The notes under the pieces are model-generated. The model did not search any database. It was not told the origin of the DNA and was given only the letters and a program-made list of their open reading frames with translations. Positions 30,639 through 34,908 of a stretch of DNA of 34,908 nucleotides are shown here, piece by piece (the first letter of the stretch is position 1; each line of letters starts with the position of its first letter). Both the position numbers and the translations under genes were made by a program. The stretch is from Candidatus Omnitrophota bacterium (GTDB taxonomy: Bacteria > Omnitrophota > Omnitrophia > Omnitrophales > Aquincolibacteriaceae). The stretch covers positions 1-34,908 of the forward strand of contig VFQY01000014.1 of NCBI GenBank assembly GCA_018883425.1. The letters are read 5' to 3'.

Positions 30639-30667
30639 TTGACGAGATTTTTTTGACTGCCTATAAT
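30639..30667 (+). promoter_or_regulatory. Near-consensus sigma70 promoter of tRNA-Gly
   Basis: TTGACG (30639-30644), exactly 17 nt, then the perfect TATAAT (30662-30667). Transcription would begin about 7 nt later, giving a short 5' leader before the tRNA at 30681. It is one of the two best promoter matches in the window, the other being that of nusA. Confidence 0.88.
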
Positions 30668-30680
30668 GACCGCCTTTCCA

Positions 30681-30751
30681 GCGGGCATAGCTTAATGGTA
30701 AAGTCCCAGCCTTCCAAGCTGGTCATGCGGGTTCGATTCCCGCTGCCCGCT
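30681..30751 (+). tRNA. tRNA-Gly (anticodon TCC)
   Basis: This is a 71-nt cloverleaf. The acceptor stem is GCGGGCA (30681-30687) with TGCCCGC (30744-30750), and the discriminator base is T30751. The anticodon stem CCAGC/GCTGG encloses the loop CTTCCAA with anticodon TCC at 30713-30715, reading GGA codons (and GGG by wobble). The T arm has GGGTTCGATTCCC. CCA is not encoded. The last ten bases of the tRNA are also the first bases of the tandem repeat that follows. Confidence 0.97.
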
Positions 30752-32145: not shown

Positions 32146-32173
32146 TTGACAGCGAAGCTTTTTTTCATATAAT
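32146..32173 (+). promoter_or_regulatory. Consensus sigma70 promoter of nusA-infB
   Basis: A perfect TTGACA (32146-32151), a 16-nt spacer and a perfect TATAAT (32168-32173). An A/T-rich tract precedes it. Transcription should begin near 32180, about 80 nt before the nusA start. The -10 box overlaps an ATG at 32172 that would otherwise be the longest nusA frame, which rules that start out. Confidence 0.92.
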
Positions 32174-32202
32174 GAATCCAATACTTGGCAGAAAGTGCGA
32201 AG

Positions 32203-32236
32203 AAAGTGGGCCAGTTTTAGCCCACTTTTTTATTTT
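32203..32236 (+). promoter_or_regulatory. Terminator-like hairpin in the nusA leader (putative attenuator)
   Basis: A perfect 9-bp stem AAAGTGGGC (32203-32211) / GCCCACTTT (32220-32228) with an 8-nt loop is followed by TTTATTTT. It has the form of an intrinsic terminator but lies between the promoter and the nusA start, so it would release an RNA of about 55 nt unless read through. The nusA ribosome-binding site follows directly. Confidence 0.8.
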
Positions 32237-32258
32237 CAGGAGAAAAGAGGAATTTGTC

Positions 32259-33383
32259 GTGAACCAGGAACTTTTAACTTCGCTTGAATATATTGAAAAG
32301 GAAAAGGGCGTCCGCAAAGAGGTCCTGATCGAAGCCTTGAAGCAGGCCCTGTATTCTGCTTGCCGCAAGACCTACCCTGAAACCGAAGATATTCAAATCA
32401 CGATTGACCCGATTACATACCGCATCAGCCTTATTAAGGAAGGCCGCGAGATTAACGATGCCGCTTTTGGCCGTATTGCCGCGCAGACGGCTAAGCAGGT
32501 CATCATCCAGAAAATCCGCGAGGCTGAGCGTGACTCGATCTACGATGAATTCAACCACCAAGTGGGCGACATTGTCTCAGGGACCGTGCATCGGATTGAG
32601 AAAAAAGCCATTTTTGTGGACTTCGGCAAAACCGAAGGGATCCTGCCCGCCCGCGAGCAGTCTCCGGTGGACGAGTTCCAGCAGGGCAACCTTGTGCGGG
32701 CTTATGTGATGGAAGTCAAAAAGACTTCTAAGGGCCCCGAAATCATTCTCTCCCGCGCCCACGATGGGCTTGTACGGCGTCTTTTCGAGCTTGAGGTTCC
32801 TGAAATTCATGATGGGATCGTGAAAGTGCTCGGGGCTGCCCGCGAAGCCGGATCCCGCACCAAGATCGCGGTTCACTCAACCGATGACAAGATTGATTGC
32901 GTGGGATCCTGTGTAGGCGTCCGGGGTCAGCGCGTTAAAAATATCGTTCGTGAGCTCGGCGGAGAAAAAATCGACATCATCCGCTTCAGCGATGACATCG
33001 AGACCTACATCCGCAATGCCATGGCTCCTGCACAGCTTGCAGAAATCAAAATCCATAAAGAGCAAAAGTCGGCCGAAGTCCTTGTCGAGGATGATCAGCT
33101 GTCTTTGGCTATCGGCAAGAAGGGCCAAAATGTCCGCCTGGCCTCTAAGCTTCTCGGCTGGAATCTCGACGTGCGCAGTGTTCATCAGAAGATTCCGCTC
33201 GGTTCCCTTGAGGGTATCGGGGACAAGACCGAGGAAATTCTCAAAGAAGCCGGTATTGTATCCATCAAGGATATTTTGAAAACGACAGCCGAGGATTTAC
33301 AGAAAATCCCGGGCATCGGTGAAAAGACGGCGGAAAGAATTATTGCGGCCGCTCACAAAGCCATTCTGGAAAAAGGCAATTAA
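32259..33383 (+). CDS. nusA: Transcription termination/antitermination factor NusA
   Basis: This 374-aa RNA-polymerase-associated factor promotes pausing and intrinsic termination and takes part in antitermination. The N-terminal domain begins NQELLTSLEYIEKEKG. The S1 domain (GDIVSGTVHRIEKKAIFVDF) is at about 105-170. Two KH domains follow, with GVRG and GKKG loops. Two helix-hairpin-helix-like elements form the C-terminus (LEGIGDKTEEIL and IPGIGEKTAERI). The GTG start at 32259 is chosen because it gives the family N-terminus and has AAGAGG 8 nt upstream; the longer frame from 32172 overlaps the -10 box. No rimP precedes it and no ylxR follows: infB starts 19 nt after the stop. Confidence 0.96.
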   Translation: MNQELLTSLEYIEKEKGVRKEVLIEALKQALYSACRKTYPETEDIQITIDPITYRISLIKEGREINDAAFGRIAAQTAKQVIIQKIREAERDSIYDEFNHQVGDIVSGTVHRIEKKAIFVDFGKTEGILPAREQSPVDEFQQGNLVRAYVMEVKKTSKGPEIILSRAHDGLVRRLFELEVPEIHDGIVKVLGAAREAGSRTKIAVHSTDDKIDCVGSCVGVRGQRVKNIVRELGGEKIDIIRFSDDIETYIRNAMAPAQLAEIKIHKEQKSAEVLVEDDQLSLAIGKKGQNVRLASKLLGWNLDVRSVHQKIPLGSLEGIGDKTEEILKEAGIVSIKDILKTTAEDLQKIPGIGEKTAERIIAAAHKAILEKGN

Positions 33384-33402: not shown

Positions 33403-34908
33403 ATGAGAGTTCATGAGCTTGCCAAAGAATTAGGGATGACGAGCAAAGATCTGATGGCGCGCATTGCCGAGCTCGGGGGCAGCGTGAAAAGCCACATGGC
33501 AATCGTTGACGTTGAACTTTTGACCTTGCTGCAGGGAAAGCTGAAAAACGCGGCGCAGCAGCCGGCCGCGAAAGATGAAAAAATTCCGGCCGCGGGGGAA
33601 GCCAAAACGGCGGTCCTCGCCGAAAAGCCTTCTGCCAAACCCGGTGAAACTCAAACAGCGGCAGCCGAGGCCGTGCCGGCGCCTGCGCAGGCAAGACCTG
33701 CTGCTGTTTCTTCAGCAGTGCAGGAAAAATCCAAAAAACTTGCGATCAATTTCCCGGTGACGGTAGGTAATCTCGCCTCTGAATTGAACGTCCGTATTCC
33801 GCTCCTGATCAAGGCTCTGATGGAGATCGGCATTTTTGCCAACGTCAATCAACTCCTGAACGAGGACATCGGATTGGCGGTCGCTGAAAAGATGGGTTTT
33901 CAGGTAGAGTCGGTCAAAGCGGTTGAGCTTGACGCTCTGACGAAGGCCGCAGAAGATCCCTCAAGGCTTGTTCATAGGTCGCCGGTTGTGACCATGATGG
34001 GGCACGTTGACCACGGCAAGACCAGTCTTCTGGATGCTATCCGCAAGACGAATGTCGCGGCCCGAGAGCACGGCGCAATTACTCAGCACATCGGTGCTTA
34101 CAATGTCGCGATTCCGGGCAAAGGCTTTGTAACGTTCCTGGATACGCCGGGCCATGAAGCTTTCACGGCCATGCGCGCGCGGGGAGCGAATATTACCGAC
34201 GTCGTCGTGTTGGTCGTTGCTGCGGACGACGGAATCATGCCTCAGACGATTGAGGCGATTGATCACGCGCGCGAAGCCAACTGCCCGATTGTGGTCGCTA
34301 TCAATAAATGCGATCTGCCTGCTGCGAACACCGAAAAAGTCATGCGTGATCTGCAGCGTCATGATCTGACTCCCGAAGAGTGGGGCGGCAAGACGATTTG
34401 CGTCAAGGTTTCGGCGAAAACGGGCAAGGGTTTGGAACAGCTTCTTGAAATGCTTCTTCTGGAATCTGAGATTTTGGAACTTAAGGCTGACCCTGCGTGC
34501 GCGGCTTCGGGCTCCGTGATTGAAGCGCATCTCTCCAAGGGATCCGGTCCTGTCGCGACCGTGATTGTTCAGCGGGGAACGCTGCGTGTCGGCGATGTGG
34601 TTGTTTGCGGGACTTATACGGGCAAAGTTAGAGCTCTGAAATCTGATCAGGGCAAGACCCTCCGCGAAGCCGGCCCTGCCTATGCGGTGCAGTTGAGCGG
34701 ACTTGGCGGCGTTCCTGAGGCTGGTGAACCTTTTGTTGTGGTTGAAAGTGAAAAGCTCGCGCGGGAGATCACCGAGCGGCGCGTCCTGGAAAAGCGCGAG
34801 CAGGAAATGAACGCGTCTTCCAAACACCTTTCCCTGGAAAATCTTTATCAGAAAATTTCGGAAGGCAACTTCCGTGAGCTGAAGCTGATCATCAAGGCAG
34901 ACGTGCAG
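33403..34908 (+). CDS. infB: Translation initiation factor IF-2, N-terminal part
   Basis: This GTPase places initiator tRNA on the ribosome. The window ends inside the gene after 502 codons, so the C-terminal IF2 domains are missing. The N-terminus [20 protein letters not shown] is an IF2_N module. A spacer rich in Ala, Pro, Lys and Glu follows (about residues 45-110), then a second IF2_N-like region ([19 protein letters not shown]). The G domain carries GHVDHGKT at 200-207, [23 protein letters not shown] and SAKTGKG. It follows nusA by 19 nt and shares its promoter. The spacer is shorter than in enteric IF-2. Confidence 0.97.

Follow-up and report, generated by a model that had tools for sequence, protein, structure and literature searches.

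A rimP-leader-like terminator directly ahead of nusA in Omnitrophota lineages without rimP, and its probable role in NusA feedback

The window, by which we mean the whole stretch of 34,908 nucleotides analysed here, comes from an Omnitrophota metagenome-assembled genome (MAG). Toward its 3' end, the genes for NusA and IF-2 lie behind a compact series of elements, listed here with the evidence for each.

32146 to 32151, + strand: -35 hexamer TTGACA (direct reading; 12/12 in the pattern scan; position kept in relatives)
32168 to 32173, + strand: -10 hexamer TATAAT, after a spacer of 16 (direct reading; pattern scan; simulation)
32180 to 32236, + strand: predicted short leader RNA of about 57 nt, starting about 7 nt past the -10 hexamer (from the promoter and terminator positions)
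32203 to 32228, + strand: predicted terminator hairpin AAAGTGGGC(CAGTTTTA)GCCCACTTT, of the rimP-leader type (fold; conservation; top match of covariance model R1 in the genome; pair counts)
32203 to 32211, 32212 to 32219 and 32220 to 32228, + strand: first stem arm AAAGTGGGC, loop CAGTTTTA and second stem arm GCCCACTTT of that hairpin (direct reading)
32226 to 32236, + strand: T tract TTTTTTATTTT (direct reading; T tract kept in relatives)
32247 to 32250, + strand: Shine-Dalgarno-like GAGG, 8 nt ahead of the start codon and outside the hairpin (direct reading)
32259 to 33383, + strand: nusA, GTG start, with NusA_N, S1, KH and HhH domains (Pfam and NCBIfam)
33403 to 34908, + strand: infB, encoding IF-2, its 3' end past the contig (Pfam)
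31031 to 31930: fatty acid desaturase gene, upstream of nusA and divergent from it

The initial annotation of this DNA had named a perfect TTGACA-N16-TATAAT promoter, a 9-bp stem with a U tract, a ribosome-binding site and the nusA start behind them, and each of these is present. The stem consists of 9 Watson-Crick pairs, or 12 if the flanking G.U and A-U pairs are counted, and the identity of NusA is secured by a TIGR01953 match of 360 bits. Since the desaturase neighbour is divergent, no gene immediately ahead of nusA runs in its direction. The 34.9-kb window has one perfect promoter match only, the one before nusA, and the pattern scan showed no further promoter-like site from the hairpin to the start codon; the predicted terminator thus stands ahead of nusA on the gene's own promoter, with no alternative promoter behind it. 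Chance does not explain this combination, because a first-order Markov model of the intergenic region, simulated 20,000 times, produced a perfect promoter twice and an equivalent terminator not once. (A tRNA gene elsewhere in the window, at 30681 to 30751, follows a near-perfect promoter, TTGACG-N17-TATAAT; the unit spans 30639 to 30751, + strand.)

The hairpin has a folding energy of -16.7 kcal/mol (z = -6.0), and its core one of -9.8 kcal/mol. Our automatic terminator scan did not flag it at 32203 to 32236, a miss that we think is due to greedy stem extension swallowing the T tract. Folding of the leader revealed no evident alternative to the terminator, and neither an aptamer nor an antiterminator was visible. 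One candidate antiterminator, built from the repeated AGAAAGTG (32190 to 32197), was rejected: the fold ignores it, and it has no counterpart in the leaders of relatives.

A search for relatives of the window's NusA returned 20 loci, all from Candidatus Omnitrophota MAGs and at 63-77% identity. All 31 class genomes with readable upstream sequence carry this array before nusA; 23 of them belong to the family and 8 to further families within the order and class. The shared order is a TTGAC.-TATAAT-like promoter, a short spacer, an AAGTGGG..CCCACTT stem or a near variant, a T tract, and nusA. In these class leaders the stem is near-fixed as AAGUGGGC..GCCCACUU while the flanks vary and the loop does so freely, the hairpin stands 16 to 155 nt ahead of the start codon across relatives, and the sequence before the stem shows nothing conserved that resembles an aptamer. 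Every leader has a T tract immediately after its stem, which the leader finder itself required; the tract is interrupted in 24 of 30 class leaders, a count that has no ordinary-terminator baseline for comparison.

How specific is this element to its operon? Searching the window's genome for exact matches to AAGTGGG-N3-14-CCCACTT gave one site, at nusA. A looser pattern occurs elsewhere in class genomes at about the rate of a reversed control; therefore, location and T tract, rather than the pattern alone, carry the argument. The covariance model R1, built from 26 class leaders, has the nusA-upstream element as its top genome-wide match in 23 of 27 family genomes, the other four comprising three without a match and one with a weak match. 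Sequence, conservation and fold all indicate that the nusA-infB operon carries an intrinsic terminator in its 5' UTR, with an operon-specific conserved GGGc..gCCC stem motif. With the operon sitting behind a phylogenetically fixed promoter-plus-terminator array, its reading as an attenuator is well supported.

Outside the class, a scan located the same leader in 41 of about 90 other Omnitrophota genomes inspected (our own count), and in 40 of the 41 the order is leader, rimP, nusA. With the class-built model, 35 leaders outside the class, none used in model building, are recovered at E ≤ 0.025. Among the leaderless genomes that we viewed closely, rimP mostly lies directly behind another gene, often one with a ProRS-like C-terminus. 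Whole-genome searches of 16 leaderless genomes with R1 gave no match at nusA and two weak matches, both in G038, by a procedure that is not fully sensitive, as it also missed the leader-bearing G141. A wider regulon was considered and set aside: the extra R1 matches are weak, and the best of them (contig G018:C171) carries GCGGG, not GUGGG, in its 5' arm. At that site (L193, positions 340-440), TATAAT is followed by a leader-like GAAGCGGGC..CCCGCTTTTTTT ahead of a TPR/porin-like ORF.

The 35 outside leaders also allow the pairing itself to be assessed. None of 500 shuffles reaches their observed covariation score, and the both-side changes are placed at the helix ends. Pairing is kept through such changes.

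The two arms are not equally conserved. Of 71 unique leaders, 69 retain GUGGG in the 5' arm and 48 retain CCCAC in the 3' arm; the leader finder demanded the GGG of the 5' arm and left the preceding G and U free. The U of GUGGG pairs with A (52 leaders) or with G (17), and a C paired to G never replaces it in the 71. These cells are not independent events, and the change from A to G is found in at least 8 families when read by family label. Because GUGGG is kept more than CCCAC, and because U-A repeatedly becomes U.G and never C-G, the 5' arm appears to be constrained as sequence, which the comparison suggests rather than establishes. It is possible, if doubtful, that NusA, or NusA together with RNA polymerase, binds GUGGG specifically, so that this terminator would be tuned to NusA in a way that ordinary ones are not. 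Given the asymmetry of the arms, recognition of the 5' arm by its sequence could be tested with the minimal 57-nt leader.

These patterns bear on whether the leader senses anything. A terminator of fixed strength would lower nusA-infB expression to a constant level; its anatomy alone would look identical to what we observe, and the leader has no visible aptamer or antiterminator that would speak for a sensor. However, the exact stem sequence is kept across the phylum to a degree exceeding the needs of a set point, and a 2025 review (PMC12288461) describes a NusA response of the B. subtilis leader. We consider a fixed-strength attenuator unlikely.

If the leader does respond to a factor, RimP is the main rival of NusA as that factor, and here the class is informative. 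The Pfam domain RimP_N has no match in any of 25 class genomes, compared with matches in 30 of 33 other Omnitrophota. By a phylum-specific profile built from 14 Omnitrophota RimP proteins, 48 of 49 class genomes lack RimP. We rejected the lone match (G017:C307) as a contaminant contig, since its NusA is 50% identical to the window's and the genome has its own class-type nusA. This 4-kb contig (L197) reads leader-rimP-nusA-infB, with the hairpin GTGGG-GAACT-CCCAC and then a T tract.

A second case lies outside the class. Genome G155 has no RimP, and its leader stands 69 nt ahead of nusA; two members of the same family, G141 and G183, have the order leader, rimP, nusA. From these gene orders, we read the two separate rimP-less lineages as having probably lost rimP twice, each time keeping the leader. 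Neither rimP nor a leader ahead of nusA was found in families f8 and f10 (G027, G029, G031, G036 and G038). These are possibly further losses of rimP without retention of the leader; such retention is therefore not universal. What is new is that the leader stays directly before nusA in lineages without rimP. Such lineages constitute a natural experiment: since RimP is absent and the leader is kept, RimP cannot be a required sensor in them.

A reader other than NusA could still be NusG, IF-2, a metabolite or, where present, RimP. In B. subtilis, intrinsic termination is stimulated by NusG as well (PMC8060035), and RimP was considered as a reader by Naville & Gautheret (PMC2965389). The absence of RimP removes it as a required sensor here, and no aptamer-like conserved element precedes the stem. 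Regulation by NusG or some other factor is conceivable, but we regard it as very unlikely. Least probable is that the hairpin is no terminator at all, serving instead as a 5' stability or translation element or giving rise to a trans-acting small RNA. In favour of this, one list of ProQ-associated small RNAs that derive from attenuators includes the rimP-leader (PMC5391140), but every leader has its T tract directly after the stem (the finder's requirement notwithstanding), and the Shine-Dalgarno site lies outside a hairpin whose distance to the start codon is so variable.

The best explanation is probably attenuation of nusA-infB by NusA feedback through the leader, because it has a precedent and because RimP is excluded. 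Transcription would start near 32180, and RNA polymerase would make about 57 nt before meeting the intrinsic terminator at 32203 to 32236; the fraction that reads through would transcribe nusA and infB. Abundant NusA would most likely set this fraction by promoting hairpin formation and termination, giving a negative feedback loop for which no antiterminator structure is needed. The initial annotation had proposed a by-product RNA of about 55 nt; the promoter and terminator positions predict about 57 nt, the RNA itself being deduced from them.

The steps of this scheme differ in strength. Reading the nusA leader as an attenuator is strongly supported by the sequence comparisons; from these we also infer that the hairpin terminates transcription in vivo, and by analogy NusA level would control it. 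Of the autoregulation first proposed for this locus, the attenuator anatomy holds, being fixed in the class, and comparing lineages that lost rimP eliminates the main rival sensor, with NusA itself a presumptive regulator. NusA-dependent terminators in B. subtilis tend to be weak, as reportedly found by Mondal et al. 2016, whereas the hairpin and T tract here look fairly strong, which counts against the mechanism. Omnitrophota NusA could behave differently, because about 32 residues of the N-terminal domain (around E. coli 66-97) are missing, relative to E. coli, in the window's NusA and in all Omnitrophota NusA compared.

Among the papers searched, none links Omnitrophota and NusA. To our knowledge, no Omnitrophota genomes were available to the survey in which Naville & Gautheret described the rimP-leader. 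In their description, it is a terminator ahead of rimP-nusA-infB that lacks an antiterminator and bears a conserved GGGc..gCCC motif of an unusual kind; they ranked it the most ubiquitous attenuator (Naville & Gautheret 2010, PMC2965389). They proposed NusA as its likely reader, also considered RimP, and left the matter unsettled. Judged by its motif and position, the window element matches this widespread leader, which the initial annotation did not recognise. Both are short intrinsic terminators with a GGGc..gCCC stem and a T stretch, ahead of an operon with nusA and infB, without an antiterminator or large aptamer and at a variable distance from the start codon. In the window, by contrast, the stem is longer and stricter (AAGUGGGC) and the leader stands directly before nusA. 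The gene rimP, which follows the leader first in other Omnitrophota, is absent from this genome and from the class. We treat rimP in first place as the name-giving, not the functional, feature; our claim is that the element probably works like the rimP-leader and is homologous to it in position and motif, not that it is a strict member.

Rfam searches at gathering and relaxed thresholds gave no meaningful match at the window site. In the case of RF01770 (rimP, a 102-position model), 0 of 27 genomes scored above the gathering cut-off, with only chance-level matches across the family. RF01770 shares the operon and the leader name, but presumably represents the tandem gammaproteobacterial form, whereas the window leader is a single hairpin. 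The E. coli metY-rimP-nusA-infB leader likewise has a hairpin, CTGGGC(TTTAG)GCCC, and then T7 before rimP; it differs in scoring weakly with R1 (13.5 bits, E = 0.15) and in also holding metY and further terminators. In S. agalactiae, a short RNA and a long transcript arise at the leader from one start site (PMC4448216).

The closest functional precedent is B. subtilis, in line with the Bacillus precedent that the initial annotation had cited. According to the 2025 review (PMC12288461), NusA is there autoregulated through NusA-stimulated termination in its own 5' leader, work credited to Mondal et al. 2016. The B. subtilis nusA operon leader resembles ours in that it contains an intrinsic terminator and that polymerase reading past this terminator enters the NusA-encoding operon; it differs in that its first gene is rimP (ylxS) and that its NusA dependence was measured, whereas ours is deduced. 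The Omnitrophota lineages that have the leader and lack rimP are in keeping with the NusA loop described in B. subtilis.
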